Source: Chloroflexota bacterium
GTDB lineage: Bacteria; Chloroflexota; Anaerolineae; Anaerolineales; Villigracilaceae
Length of the DNA: 35,600 nucleotides
Assembly (NCBI GenBank): GCA_019873655.1
Contig: JAIOAU010000027.1
Coordinates: 1 to 35,600, forward strand
Direction: 5' to 3'
This document shows, one piece after another, positions 18,843-29,809 of the stretch. Numbering within the stretch: the first letter of the stretch is position 1; each line of letters starts with the position of its first letter. The notes under the pieces were generated by a model. The model saw only the letters and a list, made by a program, of their open reading frames with translations. It was not told where the DNA came from and searched no databases. The position numbers were made by a program, and so were the translations under genes.

Positions 18843-18852
18843 GAGCGGATTC

Positions 18853-18908
18853 GGGGTGCGGAGTGCAGGGTGCGGGGTGCAGAGTTCAGGCGTCAGTCGT
18901 CAGTCAAA
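18853..18908 (-). repeat. Period-7 array between the hypothetical gene and ABC-F gene
   Basis: On the plus strand the sequence reads GGGGTGC, GGAGTGC, AGGGTGC, GGGGTGC, AGAGTTC, AGGCGTC, AGTCGTC, then a degenerate copy: eight consecutive heptamers. It fills most of the 103-base gap and ends next to the start of the downstream gene. Confidence 0.75.
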
Positions 18909-21835: not shown

Positions 21836-23320
21836 TCAGTAAGAAACCAGAAAATAGCGGGCCTGGATGTCGGAAAAATCTACGCCGGTGTGCTGGCGCA
21901 GGAGGGCAAAGAATTCGGGCGTGGTCGCCCGGCCGTAACGGAAGCGGGCGGCGTAATCGGCCAGGAAGCCGAAAAAGGCCTCGTCGCCGATGCGGCCGCG
22001 CAGTTCCTCGAAAAAGCGGGCGCCGTTGAGGTAGATGGCGCGCCGATAGGGTTCGTAACCGGCCGTGGCGCTGACGGGCGAATCGATCCAGCCGGAGGGG
22101 GAATACAGGTTGATGCGGAAGTACCACCACCAGTCCACCAGGTCGGGATAGTAGGTTTCGTAAAAGATGTGTTCGGTGTAGGTGCACAGCGCCTCGTCCA
22201 GCCAGGGTTCGAGGGCCTGATCGTTGCCGACCAGTTCAAACCACCATTGATGGGCGGTTTCGTGGACGGCGATGATGGTCAGATAATCCTGCGGGGTGCC
22301 GGTGTAGGTGCGGTAGAAATCGCGGCTGAGGAAATAGAGAGCGGAGTACTCCATGCCGTCGGCGAAGTCGGCGGCCACGGCGGTGAGGGTGGCGTGGGGA
22401 TAGGGGCCGAAGAGGCGGGAATACAGTTCCAGGGCGCGGGCCGTCTCGCGCAGCACGGCCGCGCCGCGGTCCTCGTAGAGCGGAAAGTAATAACTGTAAA
22501 CGGTCACGTCGCCGACCTGCTGGCTGAGGACTTGATACTGGGGACTAAAAGAGAAGACAAAGGCCCGGCCCTTCTCCAGCCGGTAGAGGGTCGCCTCGCC
22601 CTCGGCGACGACCGCCCCGCTGGCGGCGACCGGCACCGCCCCGGCCGACCCGGTGAAGCGCAGACTCACCTCGTAGTCGGCCGCGTCATAGACCAGGTGC
22701 TCGCCGTAGGCGTACGGTTCGTGCAAAATCCAGCCCTGTCCGGGTTGATAGGGGACGACAAAGGGATACCAGTTGACCAGGTTGGTCTGGCGCGCCATCC
22801 AGCCGAAGATGCGCGGCCGTTGATCGTTCGGGTCGATGAACATCTCGGCCTGCGGCAGAGCCAGGGTGTACTGCAGGGACAGGTTGACCGTGGCCCCCGG
22901 CGCAAGCGGCTGCGGCAGGATTACTTCCATGCGCTGGCCGCTCAAGCGGACCTCGGCCGGGTTTCCATCCACGAGCAAAGCGTACAGCGAAAAACAGTTC
23001 GGCCACAGGTTCGGTTCGACGGCCAGGACAAGGACGGGGAGCGTCTCGCCGGCGCGGTTGGAGTAGGCGATGGATTCATTCACCTCGACCCAGTGGGCGG
23101 CGTAATCGAAGGTCACGTCCAGGCGGTAGAAGGGGATGGCTGGCGCGTCCGCAGGAGGCGTAGGCGAAGGGTCGTTTGCAGGCGTGGAGGACGCCGCGGC
23201 GGTGGGAGTGGACGACGGCAACGGCGGCGGCAGGGTGGCCGTGGCCGTCGGCGAGGGCGCAGGCGCGCCGCAGGCCGTCAGCCAGATCAACAAAAGGGCA
23301 AAAGGCAGAAATCGCTTCAT
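21836..23320 (-). CDS. M1-type metallopeptidase lipoprotein (copy 1)
   Basis: This 494-residue paralogue of the downstream gene begins MKRFLPFALLLIWLTAC with lipobox LTAC, then a shorter Pro/Thr linker. The zinc site is HETAHQWWFELVGNDQALEPWLDEAL, with the first His at about residue 353. The two copies share 'GNDQALEPWLDEAL', 'NLVNWYPFVVPY' versus 'NLVDWYPFIVPY', and 'DGMEYS', so they arose by tandem duplication but have diverged. It starts 3 bases after the znuB-like gene and is probably in the same transcript. Both would sit on the outer face of the membrane. Confidence 0.88.
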   Translation of the reverse strand: MKRFLPFALLLIWLTACGAPAPSPTATATLPPPLPSSTPTAAASSTPANDPSPTPPADAPAIPFYRLDVTFDYAAHWVEVNESIAYSNRAGETLPVLVLAVEPNLWPNCFSLYALLVDGNPAEVRLSGQRMEVILPQPLAPGATVNLSLQYTLALPQAEMFIDPNDQRPRIFGWMARQTNLVNWYPFVVPYQPGQGWILHEPYAYGEHLVYDAADYEVSLRFTGSAGAVPVAASGAVVAEGEATLYRLEKGRAFVFSFSPQYQVLSQQVGDVTVYSYYFPLYEDRGAAVLRETARALELYSRLFGPYPHATLTAVAADFADGMEYSALYFLSRDFYRTYTGTPQDYLTIIAVHETAHQWWFELVGNDQALEPWLDEALCTYTEHIFYETYYPDLVDWWWYFRINLYSPSGWIDSPVSATAGYEPYRRAIYLNGARFFEELRGRIGDEAFFGFLADYAARFRYGRATTPEFFALLRQHTGVDFSDIQARYFLVSY

Positions 23321-23323
23321 GGG

Positions 23324-24172
23324 TCAGGCGCGGGGACGCTTCCAGAGCAGGCCGCCGCGCGGCGCAAAGAGAAAGGCCAGCAGGAAGAGCAGGGTGGCCG
23401 TCAGCACAATCGCTGCGCCCGAAGCGATGCCCAGGTAGTAGGACGCGTACAGCCCGACGACGCCGGAAAGCGCCGCCAGCGCCGCGGCCAGCGCCATCAT
23501 CGGGAGCAGGCGGCGGGTCAGGAGCGAAGCGGTCGCCGCCGGGGTGACCAGCATGGCGACCATCAGCGCCACGCCAACCGTCTGCATGGCGACCGCCACC
23601 GTCACGGCAATCAGGACCAGCATCAGGTTGTTGAAGAGCGTCACCGGCAGGCGCAGGGTCTGCGCCAGGACGGGGTCGAAGGAAACGGCGAGGAATTCCT
23701 TGTAGAAGAGGGCGACGACCAGAATCACCGCCGCCCCAAAGGCGGCCATCCAGGCCAGGCTTTGCAGACTGACGCCCAGCACGTCGCCGAAGAGGAAGTG
23801 GCTCAAGTCCACGGCGTAACTGCGGACGGTGGAAATGAGGGCGATGCCCAGGGCAAACATGCCGGCGAAGACGATGCCGATGGCGGTGTCTTCCTTGACG
23901 CGCCCGCGGCGGCTGATGGCGCCGATGCCGAGCGAGGCCGCCACCGAGGTGCCGAGCGCCCACCAGAAGAGCGGCTCGCGCGCCCCGCCGCTGATCAGGT
24001 AACCCGCCGCGACGCCGGGCAGGATGGTGTGCGCCAGGGCGTCGCCGAAGAAGGCCATGCCGCGCAGGACGACATACGTCCCCACTACGGCGCAGATGAC
24101 GCCCGCCAGCACCGCCGCAGCCAGTCCGCGCAGCATGAAGGAGTATTGGAGGGGTTCGAGGAGGAAGGACAT
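23324..24172 (-). CDS. znuB: Metal ABC transporter permease (ZnuB/MntB type)
   Basis: The 282-residue protein is an ABC-3 family permease with about eight hydrophobic segments. The conserved 'VVGTYVVLRGMAFFGDALAHTILPGVA' near the N-terminus is the family signature, followed by 'RRGRVKEDTAIGIVFAGMFALG'. By family knowledge it forms the membrane channel of a high-affinity zinc or manganese importer. The ATG at 24172 has no Shine-Dalgarno because a period-7 repeat array abuts it. In most relatives znuB follows znuC directly. Here a four-helix-bundle gene and its repeats lie between them. The gene is named by type; whether the metal is Zn or Mn is inferred from context. Confidence 0.9.
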   Translation of the reverse strand: MSFLLEPLQYSFMLRGLAAAVLAGVICAVVGTYVVLRGMAFFGDALAHTILPGVAAGYLISGGAREPLFWWALGTSVAASLGIGAISRRGRVKEDTAIGIVFAGMFALGIALISTVRSYAVDLSHFLFGDVLGVSLQSLAWMAAFGAAVILVVALFYKEFLAVSFDPVLAQTLRLPVTLFNNLMLVLIAVTVAVAMQTVGVALMVAMLVTPAATASLLTRRLLPMMALAAALAALSGVVGLYASYYLGIASGAAIVLTATLLFLLAFLFAPRGGLLWKRPRA

Positions 24173-24175
24173 GGC

Positions 24176-24245
24176 GATTGGTGATTGACGATTGACAATT
24201 GACGATTTACGATTGACGATTTACGATTGGCGATTTGATGATTAC
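24176..24245 (-). repeat. Period-7 GATTKAC array between four-helix-bundle gene and znuB
   Basis: On the plus strand: GATTGGT, GATTGAC, GATTGAC, AATTGAC, GATTTAC, GATTGAC, GATTTAC, GATTGGC, GATTTGA, TGATTAC. Ten heptamers begin 3 bases upstream of the znuB ATG and reach the stop codon of the four-helix-bundle gene (24242-24244). Confidence 0.85.
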
Positions 24246-24601
24246 TTCGCTTGTTTCGAGCGCAGGGTTTTCAGGGAGGCGACCGTCATGGCAGTAATTT
24301 CGCCGGCCTCTTTTACCAGAGAAGTCGTACTGCCTTTCGGAAGAATGTTCGCTTCTTCAATGAGTTCGAGCCAGTAAATGGTCTCGTCGCTCTCTTCCTC
24401 GACAATCTTCAGTTTGTTAATCATGTCAGCAGTGGATTTGGCGCGGCAGGCCGCCCGGTAATTTGCGCCGATGGAAGTGGACGAACGCAGCACCTGTCGT
24501 CCCAAAACATCTGCCGCCATCGTCTTTGGCATTCCATCCGTCAGCCGAATCACCGCCAGGGCAAGTTGTTTTGTCCGCATCTTGAAAGTCTTCTCGTCCA
24601 C
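24242..24601 (-). CDS. Four-helix-bundle protein (23S rRNA intervening-sequence protein family)
   Basis: The 119-residue product has the IVP family pattern 'RTKQLALAVIRLTDGMP', 'LGRQVLRSSTSIGANYRAACRAKSTADMINKLKIVEEESDETIYWLELIEE'. It starts at GTG (24601) with GAAGGAGG upstream. An in-frame ATG at 24634 would begin inside the repeat array. Family members were first found in intervening sequences of 23S rRNA genes but are widespread at other loci; their molecular role is unknown. It is flanked by heptamer arrays in inverted orientation and splits the metal-transporter genes, which suggests a mobile cassette. Confidence 0.85.
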   Translation of the reverse strand: MDEKTFKMRTKQLALAVIRLTDGMPKTMAADVLGRQVLRSSTSIGANYRAACRAKSTADMINKLKIVEEESDETIYWLELIEEANILPKGSTTSLVKEAGEITAMTVASLKTLRSKQAK

Positions 24602-24613
24602 CTTGCCTCCTTC

Positions 24614-24683
24614 AATCAAAAATCGTAAATCCAAAATCGCAAATCGAAAATCGTAAATCGAAAATCGAAAATCGTAAATCTAC
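24614..24683 (-). repeat. Period-7 AATCGWA array between znuC and the four-helix-bundle gene
   Basis: On the plus strand: AATCAAA, AATCGTA, AATCCAA, AATCGCA, AATCGAA, AATCGTA, AATCGAA, AATCGAA, AATCGTA, AATCTAC. On the minus strand it reads as GATTTWC units, the same family as the plus-strand array at 24176-24245, so the two arrays are inverted relative to each other. The array ends inside the znuC stop codon (24680-24682). Confidence 0.85.
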
Positions 24684-25447
24684 TCGCCCTGGCAACACTC
24701 ATCCATCAAAATCTTCCGGCTGCCGTAGGCGCGCGTCAGGTTGCCAGCCTGCAAGACCTGCTCCGGCGCTCCGAAGGCAATCAGCCGCCGGTTGAGGAGC
24801 AGGATGCGGTCGAAGTGAAGCCGCGCCTGCTCCAGGTCGTGGGTGGCGACCATCAGGGTCACGCCGCGCCGCTGAAGGTCGTCCAGCAGGGCCAGCAGAC
24901 TCTCCTGGGCGGGCGTATCCAGACCGGTGAGCGGCTCGTCCATCAGCATCAGTTCGGCTTCCTGCGCCAGGGCGCGGGCGATGAACATGCGCTGCTGCTG
25001 GCCGCCGGAGAGTTCGTTAATCTGACGATTCGCCAGACCGGCCATCCCCACCGTCTCCAGCGCGGCGTGGACCAGGTCCCAGTCGCGTTTCTTCGGCCAG
25101 TTGAACAGCCCCAGTTTGGCAATGCGCCCCATCATGACCACGTCCGCCACCGAGACGGGGAAGCGCCAGTCCACCTGACTGCGCTGGGGGACGTAGCCGA
25201 TGCAGACGTGTCCGCCCGGCCCGGACCCGTAGACGGTCACCTCGCCCTCGGTCGGGCGCAGCACCCCGGCCACAATCTTGAACAGCGTGCTTTTTCCCGC
25301 CCCGTTCGGCCCGACGACCGCCACCCGTTCTCCGGCGTGCAGGTGAAAGGTGACGTCCTCCAGCGCGGTGTGGCCGTCATAGCGCAGGGAGACGCCGGCG
25401 AGGTTCAGGATGGGCTGGTCGGGGAGGTGAGAAACGTGAGGGGACAT
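24680..25447 (-). CDS. znuC: Metal ABC transporter ATP-binding protein (ZnuC/MntA type)
   Basis: The 255-residue ATPase has Walker A GPNGAGKST, Q-loop 'IGYVPQRSQVDWRFPVSVADVVMMGR', signature LSGGQQQR, Walker B LMLMDEPLTGLD and H-loop 'VATHD'. The 'VDWRFPVSV' segment after the Q-loop is characteristic of manganese/zinc-type ABC transporter ATPases. It supplies ATP hydrolysis for the permease and the binding protein encoded on either side. A period-7 array lies 5 bases upstream of the ATG in place of a Shine-Dalgarno. Its C-terminus has 'MDECCQGE', adjacent cysteines that are not part of the core family. Confidence 0.92.
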   Translation of the reverse strand: MSPHVSHLPDQPILNLAGVSLRYDGHTALEDVTFHLHAGERVAVVGPNGAGKSTLFKIVAGVLRPTEGEVTVYGSGPGGHVCIGYVPQRSQVDWRFPVSVADVVMMGRIAKLGLFNWPKKRDWDLVHAALETVGMAGLANRQINELSGGQQQRMFIARALAQEAELMLMDEPLTGLDTPAQESLLALLDDLQRRGVTLMVATHDLEQARLHFDRILLLNRRLIAFGAPEQVLQAGNLTRAYGSRKILMDECCQGE

Positions 25448-25452
25448 GAGAC

Positions 25453-25487
25453 GGGAGTCGGGTGTCGGGTGTCGGGAGTCGAGAGGC
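25453..25487 (-). repeat. Period-7 GGGWGTC array between znuA and znuC
   Basis: On the plus strand: GGGAGTC, GGGTGTC, GGGTGTC, GGGAGTC, GAGAGGC. Five heptamers fill the gap between the znuA stop (25495) and the znuC start (25447). Confidence 0.75.
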
Positions 25488-25494
25488 GGATAGT

Positions 25495-26433
25495 CTATTT
25501 GAGCGCTTCGACGATGGCGCTGACATTATAGCGCATAAACTCCAGGTAGGTCGGGGCCGGGCCGCTGGCGTTGGTCAGCGAGCCGTGGTAGAGCGGGACG
25601 AGTTGCACGCCGGTATCCTGGGCGATCTGGCGGGCCAGATTTTGATTGACATCCGCGCCGACAAAGACGGCCTTCACTCCATAGGCGCGAATCTGGTCTT
25701 CGAGGGCGGCCAGTTCCTGGGCCGAGGGCGACGCGCCGGTGCTGAACGAGCCGGTAATCGTCCCCAACTGCGTGAAGCCGTACTCATGGGCAAAATAGCC
25801 AAAGACGGCATGGTCAGAAACCAGATAGCGGTTCTCCGCCGGGACCCGGGCAACCTGCTGGCGAATCCACTCGTCGAGGGCGCGCAGTTCGGCGGCGTAG
25901 GCCTCAGCGTTGGCCCGGTACGCGTCGGCGTGCGCCGGGTCGGCCTCCGAGAGCGCGGCGGCGATGTTCTCCACCCAGACGAGGACGTTGTTCGGGTCCA
26001 TCCAGGTGTGCGGGTCGCCGCCTTCGTGATGATGTTCTTCGCCTTCGCCCTCATGATGATGTTCCTCGCCCTCGAAGGGCAGGAGTTCGATGCCTTCCGA
26101 GACCTCGACCAGTTTGTCGGTCGCGCCAGCGCTTTCCAGAAGCGGCTCGAGGAACTCCTCCAGCCCCGCGCCGTTGGCAAAAACGATCTGCGCGTCGGCG
26201 ATGGCGGCGGCGTCCTGCGGACGCGGCTCGAAGGTGTGCGGGTCCGTACCGAGGGGCAGGAGTTGCGTCACCTGGACGTAGTCGCCGCCCACCTGGCGGA
26301 CGACGTCGGCGACAATCGAGGTCGTGGCGAGGACCTGGAGTTTGCCGTCCGCCGAGGGCTGGCCACCCGCGCAGGCCGAAAGAATCAGGCTGATGAGGGC
26401 CAGCACAGAGAGGAGAGTCAGTTTGGTTTTCAT
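25495..26433 (-). CDS. znuA: Metal-binding lipoprotein of ABC importer (ZnuA type)
   Basis: The 312-residue protein is a cluster A-I solute-binding lipoprotein. The signal ends in the lipobox LSAC. Typical metal-site His appear in 'GTDPHTFEPRPQD', 'GGDPHTWMDPNN' and 'LVSDHAVFGYFAHEYG', with a final Asp in 'VFVGADVNQN'. A His/Glu-rich loop (EEHHHEGEGEEHHHEGGD, about residues 119-138) is the zinc-sensing or loading loop found in ZnuA rather than in manganese-binding relatives, supporting zinc. The ATG at 26433 has AGGAG upstream. A Fur-family-type palindrome lies at 26452-26470. Confidence 0.93.
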   Translation of the reverse strand: MKTKLTLLSVLALISLILSACAGGQPSADGKLQVLATTSIVADVVRQVGGDYVQVTQLLPLGTDPHTFEPRPQDAAAIADAQIVFANGAGLEEFLEPLLESAGATDKLVEVSEGIELLPFEGEEHHHEGEGEEHHHEGGDPHTWMDPNNVLVWVENIAAALSEADPAHADAYRANAEAYAAELRALDEWIRQQVARVPAENRYLVSDHAVFGYFAHEYGFTQLGTITGSFSTGASPSAQELAALEDQIRAYGVKAVFVGADVNQNLARQIAQDTGVQLVPLYHGSLTNASGPAPTYLEFMRYNVSAIVEALK

Positions 26434-26451
26434 GGGTTTCTCCTTTATGAA

Positions 26452-26470
26452 ATTGATATTCTTTTTCAAT
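26452..26470 (-). promoter_or_regulatory. Probable Zur/Fur-family operator upstream of znuA
   Basis: ATTGATA-TTCTT-TTTCAAT is a 7-5-7 inverted repeat with one mismatch, 18 bases upstream of the znuA ATG. It matches the perfect palindrome upstream of the Fur-family gene (27174-27192), so both are likely targets of that regulator. Confidence 0.65.
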
Positions 26471-26486
26471 AAAAACGAGCATTTTT

Positions 26487-26513
26487 GTAGGTCGGATGGA
26501 CAATCCGACCTAC
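26487..26513. repeat. Extragenic palindrome (11-bp stem)
   Basis: GTAGGTCGGAT (26487-26497), loop GGACA, ATCCGACCTAC (26503-26513). It has no T-run on the 3' side of either strand, so it is not a canonical Rho-independent terminator. It could be a REP-type element or a Rho-dependent structure between the 65-aa protein gene and znuA. Confidence 0.6.
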
Positions 26514-26521
26514 TACACAGT

Positions 26522-26719
26522 TCAGCCCAGTTGAGGAAACTTGATGTGGAAGATGGCCGAACCAACCGCCAGCAGGAGCAGAACCAGCGCAGTCAACGCG
26601 GCAAAGGGACGGACGCGCTGCGGCGGCAGACCTTTCTGTTGCCGCGACTTGCGCTGTTTGCTATCCAGCGCAACGCCGGCCGCGGCGGCGGTGGGAATGG
26701 CGGCGCAAAACATGCACAT
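26522..26719 (-). CDS. Small membrane protein in the zinc operon
   Basis: The 65-residue product begins MCMFCAAIPTAAAAG, with two cysteines at positions 2 and 5, then a basic stretch ('SKQRKSRQQKGLPPQRVRP') and one membrane span ('AALTALVLLLLAVGSAIFHI'). The ATG at 26719 has GGAGG 5 bases upstream, which makes it a convincing gene. It lies between the Fur-family regulator and the znuA-type gene. I do not recognise the family. By position, a role in metal handling, for example a Cys-based sensor or chaperone at the membrane, is plausible but not shown. Confidence 0.7.
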   Translation of the reverse strand: MCMFCAAIPTAAAAGVALDSKQRKSRQQKGLPPQRVRPFAALTALVLLLLAVGSAIFHIKFPQLG

Positions 26720-28393: not shown

Positions 28394-29809
28394 TCACGCT
28401 GTCCTCCCGGCCTTCGTCTCCAGGCGCCGCAGGCGATGTTCGAGTTCGGCCGCCCAGTGATCGGCGGCGTAGGACGGCAGGCTCGCCGCGGCGAGATACT
28501 CCAGGGCGCGGCGCGTCCAGGTTAGGGCGGCGGCCGGATCGTGAAGACGATGCTCGCAATGTTTGGCCAGTTCGACGCAGGCATAGATGTGGCCCTGGGC
28601 GGCAGCCTGCTCCCACAGGCGAACCGCCGCCTCCAGGTCGCCGCGGCGGCGCTCCAGGCGCGAAAGCCGCCGCACCGCCTCCCAGAAATCGGTTTCCGGC
28701 AACTCGACCTCCAGGCCGCGCTCATAGAGACGGGCCGCCAGGTCCCACTTTCCGAGTTCCTCGAACAACTTGGCCAGGGCGATGAAGTCCAGGCCATGTC
28801 GGACGCGCCCATCGAAGGGATTGTACAAAATGGCAGCCACGTGGCTGGTCAGAGCGGCCAGGGCGACGATGTCCATGGCGTTGTGGTAGAAAACCCCTTT
28901 GAGCGGCGCAGCGTCGCCGGTGCGCAGGTAATCGAAGTACAGATAGGGGATTTCATAGCCGGGCACTTCTTCGCTCGTGCGCGGCGCCAGCAGGACATTC
29001 TCTTCGAGGTACTTGAGCGCCCGCGACGGGAGGCGGTCGCGCCATAAGCGGCGGGCCAGAGGAAGCAGGTCGAGATGCAAACAATCCTCGAAGGGGACCG
29101 GGATACTGTGCAAGCGGTAACGGGTGGCCAGCAGCGGAGCGTCGAAGGCCTTGCCGTTGAAGGTCACCAGCGCCCGGGCCGGAGCGAGGGCCTGCGCCAG
29201 CGCCTCCAACAGCGCCGCCTCCTCCGACGGATCGCGCATGAAGTACTGCTCCACCCGAAACACCATCCGTTTATCCGTTCCAAAATCCGTTTCCGTCCGT
29301 TTATCCGTTCCAAAATCCGTTCCCATCCGTGTGTCCGTTTGAGAGTCCGTTGACTTCCGTCCGAAATCCGTTTCCGTCCGTTTGTCCGCTTCAGCGTCCG
29401 TTGACTTCCATGTGTCCGTTTCAGAGTCCGTTGACAAAAAGCGCCCCACGCCGACCAGGAACGCGTACGTCCCTGTGCCGCCCGCCAGGCCGGAGGTCTC
29501 GGCATCCAGAAAGACGAACGCCTCGAGCGGCAACTCCGCCAGCAAAGGAGACTGCGCCCAGGCGGCGATTCCATCCAGGGAGGCCGCGCACGTCAGCGGC
29601 ATCTGGCCGTGACAGTAATCGGAAGGGAAAGTCCGCTCGGCGACGAAGGTCTCGCCGCGGGGGGTGAGGACGACGCGCCCGTCCACGACCGACTGAATCG
29701 AGGCGCCCGCCGCCGGGGCCCGAGACGCAGGCCGGAGGTCCGCAGCGCCGACTTTGACGCCCAACGCCCTGAGTTTGTCGCTCAGCGAAGATTTGCCAGA
29801 ATCCGACAT
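28394..29809 (-). CDS. YprB-like RNase H-fold exonuclease with repeat insertion
   Basis: The 471-residue protein has a DEDD-type 3'-5' exonuclease domain of the YprB family. The metal ligands Asp102 and Glu104 are in FLDAETSG, a further Asp is in 'VTFNGKAFDAPLL', and another in 'HNAMDIVALAAL'. The C-terminal ~170 residues have TPR-like helices ('DLAARLYERGLEVELPE', 'GDLEAAVRLWEQAA'). Between the first strand and 'FRVEQYFMRD' lies a hydrophilic insert (about residues 126-182) made of Thr/Asp/Lys-rich repeats such as TDKRTETDFG. By family knowledge YprB-like proteins are predicted nucleases with uncertain substrates. A TATAAT on the minus strand (29823-29818) ends 8 bases before the ATG, so the mRNA may be leaderless. 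Confidence 0.82.
   Translation of the reverse strand: MSDSGKSSLSDKLRALGVKVGAADLRPASRAPAAGASIQSVVDGRVVLTPRGETFVAERTFPSDYCHGQMPLTCAASLDGIAAWAQSPLLAELPLEAFVFLDAETSGLAGGTGTYAFLVGVGRFLSTDSETDTWKSTDAEADKRTETDFGRKSTDSQTDTRMGTDFGTDKRTETDFGTDKRMVFRVEQYFMRDPSEEAALLEALAQALAPARALVTFNGKAFDAPLLATRYRLHSIPVPFEDCLHLDLLPLARRLWRDRLPSRALKYLEENVLLAPRTSEEVPGYEIPYLYFDYLRTGDAAPLKGVFYHNAMDIVALAALTSHVAAILYNPFDGRVRHGLDFIALAKLFEELGKWDLAARLYERGLEVELPETDFWEAVRRLSRLERRRGDLEAAVRLWEQAAAQGHIYACVELAKHCEHRLHDPAAALTWTRRALEYLAAASLPSYAADHWAAELEHRLRRLETKAGRTA
29264..29435 (-). repeat. In-frame ~30-bp tandem repeat inside the exonuclease gene
   Basis: On the plus strand the array is built of blocks ending in TCC: an 8-mer like GTTTATCC, a 12-mer like GTTCCAAAATCC and a 10-mer like GTTTCCGTCC, together 30 bases. 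About five to six units are visible, one short (21 bases). All lengths are multiples of 3, so the gene stays open. Confidence 0.85.

Follow-up and report, generated by a model that had tools for sequence, protein, structure and literature searches.

Introduction

The 23S rRNA intervening sequences (IVSs) of Coxiella and Leptospira carry an open reading frame (ORF) of the PF05635 type in a loop closed by complementary ends. In the passages of the Coxiella paper that treat it, the IVS of this organism has an S23p ORF, complementary ends and tandem heptamers ahead of the ORF; the first repeat is the site of RNase III cleavage, and no function is known for S23p-type proteins (PMC4990558). Among the periodic DNA repeats of prokaryotic intergenic regions, tandem heptamers are the most abundant ones according to the part of a survey that deals with them, which sees 'no clear clue' as to what they do (PMC6344855). 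Here, we describe a locus in which both occur together. It lies on a 35,600-nucleotide stretch from a Chloroflexota bacterium (contig C27 of an assembly of 3.04 Mb in 45 contigs); 'the window' denotes this whole stretch. In it, the znuC-znuB junction of a predicted zinc-uptake operon is exactly filled by a four-helix-bundle (4HB) gene of the S23p family and two inverted period-7 arrays.

Like the 23S IVSs, this cassette has a PF05635-type ORF between complementary ends. Unlike them, it is located outside the 23S rRNA gene, in an mRNA operon junction between two protein genes, its ends are arrays of a locus-specific heptamer, and its closing stem is predicted. The Coxiella IVS, as far as the passages concerned describe it, consists of the same parts and is cut by RNase III. 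A literature search that fell short of most subscription journals found no other work linking tandem heptamers with the 4HB family. We consider it an even bet that the cassette is an IVS-like element of operon junctions, with arms that fold at the RNA level and a 4HB protein acting on its own arrays.

The cassette and the znu operon

The upstream array shares its first base, the G at 24680, with the TAG stop codon of znuC; the array on the other side of the gene lies 3 bases from the znuB ATG (24170-24172). Both contacts had been reported in the first-pass annotation, and the coordinates agree. That annotation had also described inverted period-7 arrays of ten units each. The bracket is real; Tandem Repeats Finder (TRF) gives 9.1 and 9.6 copies, i.e. 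about nine. The plus-strand units at 24176-24243 are of the GATTKNC type, and the inverse units are found at 24614-24680. A chance repeat is ruled out, as none of 50 shuffles of the window yielded a lag-7 array of comparable quality. The GC content is 0.53 in the 4HB gene, 0.28-0.38 in the arrays and 0.67-0.68 in znuC and znuB. The features are:

24176-24243, plus strand: downstream arm (3' of the 4HB gene), inverted GATTKAC array (TRF, period scan)
24614-24680, minus strand: upstream arm (5' of the 4HB gene), GATTTAC/GATTTTC heptamer array (TRF, period scan)
24242-24601, minus strand: 4HB gene, 119 aa, GTG start, TAA stop (PF05635, TIGR02436, AlphaFold2, orthologues)
24606-24612, minus strand: Shine-Dalgarno-like AAGGAGG of the 4HB gene (sequence)
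23324-24172, minus strand: znuB-type permease (ABC-3), after the cassette (Pfam)
24680-25447, minus strand: znuC-type ATPase, before the cassette (Pfam)
25448-25494 (period scan: 25435-25494), no strand: gene-less GAGTCGG-theme array filling the znuA-znuC junction (TRF, period scan)
25495-26457, minus strand: znuA-type binding protein, first operon gene (Pfam)

On the minus strand the gene order is znuA, znuC, 4HB gene, znuB, and a Fur-family gene lies ahead of znuA. The neighbours match the Pfam profiles ABC_tran, ABC-3, ZnuA and FUR, and these family names suggest zinc as the substrate of the operon.

The 4HB protein

Translation starts at the GTG at 24601, behind the AAGGAGG motif; this start is fixed by the orthologues (MDEKTFK). 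The protein belongs to the S23p family, as shown by its profile scores, 64.7 bits for PF05635 (curated cut-off 33.8) and 86.5 bits for TIGR02436 (curated cut-off 24), and by its four-helix fold. PF05635 is the sole Pfam match; in NCBIfam, TIGR02436 is joined by two weak PRK12275 models, and neither database reveals a nuclease or transposase domain. The protein is under purifying selection: The ratio of nonsynonymous to synonymous substitution rates (dN/dS) is at most 0.12 in 9 of 9 orthologue pairs, several of these values being upper bounds with saturated dS.

The AlphaFold2 model is a four-helix bundle with a mean predicted local distance difference test (pLDDT) score of 97.1. Its closest structural matches are 2rld, the best one in the PDB, and 2gsc, followed by Avd, the accessory protein of diversity-generating retroelements (DGRs). 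The modelled fold, which would be the same as that of Avd (4dwl, template modelling score up to 0.79) and also matches the DGR particle 8ub7, could point to a retro-mobile unit served by a reverse transcriptase (RT) in trans, with the 4HB protein as an Avd-like accessory factor. Fixed orientation within transcripts, described below, would fit as well. Unlike in DGRs, no RT is found beside the 4HB gene, and the one RVT_1 match of the genome is located on C14. Across 41 related genomes RT genes do not track 4HB genes: G006, G026 and G018 have 22, 16 and 7 family matches, and each has 0 RT matches. An RT-driven unit was therefore set aside as the main explanation, and we regard it as highly improbable.

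Arrays accompany the gene family across phyla

Heptamer arrays that bracket a 4HB gene recur across phyla, so the znu case is no local oddity. PF05635 is present in 34 of the 41 relatives, with up to 22 copies per genome. Of 78 related loci, the 71 with available contig-end offsets were analysed. With a threshold of 0.68 for calling arrays, 33 of the 71 have a period-7 array upstream, 31 have one downstream and 24 have them on both sides. The corresponding numbers for period 8 are 11, 14 and 9, and for periods 4-6 and 9-12 they are 0 or 1 per side. Among random 260-bp windows of the own genome, 24 of 5000 score as arrays. A cross-phylum sample comprises at least 80 named loci; all numbers given for it here and below hold among the matches listed. 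Its record titles include Bacteroidota, Acidobacteria, Planctomycetota, Verrucomicrobiota, Proteobacteria, WOR-3 and Chloroflexi. Of 80 loci, 29 have a period-7 array upstream, 23 have one downstream and 10 have them on both sides. The first-pass annotation had raised a survey of other four-helix-bundle genes for flanking heptamer arrays, and both sets contain them. In addition, a 4HB cassette with a GAATG-like theme precedes a putative carB-like gene in two genera (L209, L214).

Period-7 arrays are 10.6 times as dense near the gene as in the remainder of the locus, both in the 71 related loci (54 near, 20 far) and in 80 cross-phylum loci (58 near, 27 far). Since the far control regions include coding DNA, part of this excess could be due to intergenic location alone. 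This would suit an explanation in which the arrays are ordinary intergenic slippage repeats and the 4HB gene merely often lies in such regions, all the more as heptamer repeats are described, in the part of the survey concerned, as common between genes in many prokaryotes (PMC6344855). Yet slippage yields direct, unrelated arrays, not inverted arms with the same theme, the same period and fixed polarity around one family, nor does it account for the dependence of arrays on the gene across genomes. We judge it very unlikely.

Similar heptamers have been described before. TAACTGA and other heptamers of Beggiatoaceae, Cyanobacteria, Xanthomonas and Nostoc have the same period, are intergenic and lie near start codons, and CAGTTAT arrays in the genomes studied here are the reverse complement of TAACTGA. 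The published accounts, in the sections concerned, tie TAACTGA-type heptamers to no gene family, whereas the arrays reported here bracket 4HB genes.

The two arms are inverted copies of one locus-specific heptamer

Within the related loci (69 of 71; L009 and L127 left out), arm complementarity amounts to 23.6 within loci versus 11.8 between them, a difference reached by 0 of 2000 permutations, and the own arm is the best partner in 35 of 69 loci. As this first trim can include coding sequence, a second comparison used flanks that end well ahead of the gene. It gave 17.1 within and 11.0 between loci, with 12.6 as the highest permutation (0 of 2000 reaching the observed value) and the own arm best in 15 of 69 loci. 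Cross-phylum arms behave similarly (17.8 within, 10.9 between; own arm best in 26 of 80). Insertion into one pre-existing direct array is ruled out, because the arms are inverted and matched.

The architecture was further analysed in 151 loci (71 related and 80 cross-phylum). Same-period arrays flank the gene on both sides in 68 of them (period 7: 51; period 8: 16; period 9: 1). In these, the real order of units fits better than that of unit-shuffled arms (mean z 2.07; z above 1.64 in 43 of 68, below 0 in 3). In 54 of 67 loci, the array edge is positioned between -33 and +11 nt from the stop codon of the upstream gene. In a strand-free model, 99 of 111 arms have the same heptamer polarity with respect to the 4HB gene; in upstream arms, the coding strand carries a purine-G-pyrimidine core.

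Neighbour orientation was assigned by a longest-ORF heuristic, which gave no call for 52 upstream and 50 downstream neighbours in the 151 loci; the flank was too short in 3 and 4 loci, respectively. Of the neighbours that can be scored, 89 of 96 upstream and 87 of 97 downstream ones are co-directional with the 4HB gene. Where both can be scored, both are co-directional in 63 of 71 loci and both opposite in 2. Since the element is co-directional within operons and touches stop and start codons, a guest at the RNA level is the best reading. The first-pass annotation had proposed that the arrays could pair in RNA. In the predicted fold of the minus-strand RNA they do so (-163.7 kcal/mol, z -3.63, 0 of 100 shuffles as stable). 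A known Rfam RNA is ruled out: Rfam covariance models, including those for group I and II introns, gave 0 matches over the gathering score within positions 23200-26600 of the window.

Gene-less arrays and array number

The unit is part of a genome-wide repeat system, because gene-less arrays exist as well. In 400 kb of the own genome sampled without family matches, 6 period-7 arrays were found. The GATTKNC pattern occupies 59 windows at 13 places of this genome, comprising 9 single arrays, 3 short gene-less inverted pairs (on C5, C8 and C18) and the znu cassette. On C8, a gene-less inverted heptamer pair (L273 of G000) is located between the tRNA genes at 1424-1499 and 1587-1661. The window itself has a further gene-less period-7 array at 18847-18906, adjoining an ORF that resembles an ABC-F ATPase by its sequence.

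The pattern is found in 25 of 34 relatives with the family and in 0 of 7 without it. Likewise, five family-free genomes have 0 period-7 arrays in 397 kb versus 15 in 800 kb of seven family-bearing ones. Across 150 genomes of one class, at least 3 windows of two themes are present in 66 of 107 genomes with PF05635 versus 3 of 43 without, and array windows rise with gene number (rho 0.72), where some windows belong to the cassettes themselves and phylogeny is uncorrected. The first-pass annotation had considered the locus an mRNA intervening-type cassette. The junction fit, the predicted fold and the heptamers reported in the relevant passages on Coxiella (PMC4990558) agree with this, but the gene-less arrays make it too narrow.

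Repeats around and away from a gene are also known from repetitive extragenic palindromic (REP) sequences and bacterial interspersed mosaic elements (BIMEs) with their REP-associated tyrosine transposases (RAYTs). In these REPtrons, as the portion of the report on them describes, a gene lies between inverted repeats, gene-less copies are dispersed, and repeat number is tied to the gene (PMC2817692). The same tie is found here for two themes in one class and is missing for a third theme in 44 cross-phylum genomes. A DNA-level element of this type would have arms that act as single-stranded DNA hairpins and are spread by the 4HB protein, perhaps together with a host nuclease, and its operon orientation would reflect only the need for read-through. 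The inverted repeats around the gene, the gene-less pairs on C5, C8 and C18 and the rise of arrays with the gene match what the report says of RAYTs. Unlike REPtrons, the cassette has no tyrosine HuH transposase in Pfam or NCBIfam, where the 4HB protein matches only PF05635, TIGR02436 and the two weak PRK12275 models, and its repeats are period 7-9 arrays instead of GTAG-tagged palindromes. Moreover, 63 co-directional versus 2 opposite loci would not be expected for a DNA transposon without selection. A DNA-level element thus appears unlikely. Eukaryotic Foldback (FB/TU) elements resemble the cassette in having inverted ends built from short tandem repeats. Their host domain and gene content are different, and common descent is not claimed.

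The znu junction in related genomes

A comparison of znuC-znuB junctions in relatives, as envisaged in the first-pass annotation, revealed tight, occupied and scarred sites. The search for znuB gave matches in 36 of 41 genomes; 30 loci were fetched and 19 of the 30 junctions read. In 4 of 30 loci, znuC and znuB are separated by a 4HB gene, namely in the genome of the window, G009, G007 and G003; the G003 copy has an in-frame stop. In G004, a remnant flanked by arrays on either side is left. G012 has a piece that consists of an array alone, as G013 perhaps has too, and the junction of G011 comprises 75 bp with no clear array. The other 11 of the 19 junctions are 12-37 bp long, among them those of the congener G002 and of G015, the nearest relative by znuB. 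Judged by eye, the GATTKAC theme is common to the occupied copies. In a znuC+znuB tree of 27 rows (3 of the 30 loci had no znuC match and were excluded), the genome of the window stands beside G015, G008 and G002, which are all empty, and G009, G007 and G003 form a separate clade. As occupied genomes stand apart in this tree, there were either at least two gains at the znu junction or a single old one, followed by several clean losses or exchanges; the data are compatible with both.

A second junction, between genes that look like E1-beta and E2 dehydrogenase genes by sequence, harbours two different 4HB types: Two genera have a GGTTG-like theme, and two others have a CAGTGAT theme with the other 4HB type.

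These sites also bear on a host-domesticated regulator, a protein that would bind the heptamer array in its own operon mRNA and tune downstream translation, with mobility belonging to the past. Purifying selection, the theme kept at the same site in relatives and the arrays touching stop and start codons would be in line with this. The patchy occupation of the znu site, with occupied genomes that stand apart in the tree, the pseudogene and remnant copies, and the junction that harbours two gene types with different themes are at odds with it, and we think such a regulator quite unlikely.

Other features of the window

At 29263-29435 of the window, a tandem coding repeat (TDKRTETD-like) is present inside a protein gene, and a similar repeat occurs in an unrelated ORF of the same genome (C1, about 39606-39984). 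Between about 10000 and 16000, the GC content is 0.43-0.51 versus about 0.60-0.66 over most of the remainder; this stretch is perhaps foreign DNA.

A proposed IVS-like guest of operons

In the mechanism that we propose, the 4HB gene and the inverted heptamer arrays on either side of it would form a single element living in operon junctions and co-transcribed with the operon. The arms would pair in RNA, so that the insert is looped out as a hairpin, which may be subject to RNase processing. For the ribosome, this hairpin would bring the stop codon of the preceding gene close to the start codon of the next one, like the stem of a 23S IVS. Related to S23p and Avd, the 4HB protein would recognize and act on arrays of its own theme and thereby drive or guard their spread. 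Gene-less hairpins and single arrays would be derivatives or scars.

Several observations weigh against this mechanism. Same-period arrays on both sides are lacking in 83 of the 151 loci at the threshold used. In 14 disjoint orthologue pairs, own-arm fit is higher in 6, lower in 5 and equal in 3. Arm-arm co-evolution is thus not significant in these pairs; the arms match at the level of the theme more than base by base, which speaks against a strict hairpin. The theme tracks the protein only among close relatives and fades fast with distance: With sites sharing neighbouring proteins set aside, the theme is the same in 6 of 8 pairs at a protein similarity of at least 0.8, in 3 of 24 at 0.7-0.8, in 7 of 51 at 0.6-0.7 and in 22 of 2200 below (Mantel test of theme versus protein: 13 of 1000). 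The protein encoded in the window is basic (isoelectric point 9.3), but the median over 69 family domains is 6.3, with 15 above 8; the family is not generally basic, and this weakens a charge-based argument for binding. Near-identical copies within one genome were not found among the compared loci. For the TCAGNNN theme, the 44 cross-phylum genomes, all with the family, show no correlation with gene number (rho -0.16, p 0.31). Finally, G086, G120 and G073 hold at least 10 array windows without a detectable family member. G086 and G120, whose assemblies are 81 and 90 percent complete, have many windows of the GATT theme and no PF05635 or TIGR02436 match.

A broader proposal, which we put forward tentatively and with less than even confidence, is that 4HB proteins and heptamer arrays constitute one transposase-free bacterial system for spreading repeats. 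Here, the protein would read its own theme, foldback units would disperse through operon junctions, their RNA would be folded harmlessly out, and the 23S IVS would be one special landing site. If true, this would explain the widespread heptamer repeats of prokaryotes.

The tie between heptamers and S23p proteins gives each a testable partner, since the repeats gain a protein to be tried on them and the protein gains a candidate target. This offers a first way to approach the unexplained heptamer repeats in bacterial genomes. An IVS-like element in operon junctions would extend intervening sequences from rRNA to ordinary mRNAs and would show how a selfish insert can sit within an operon without breaking it.
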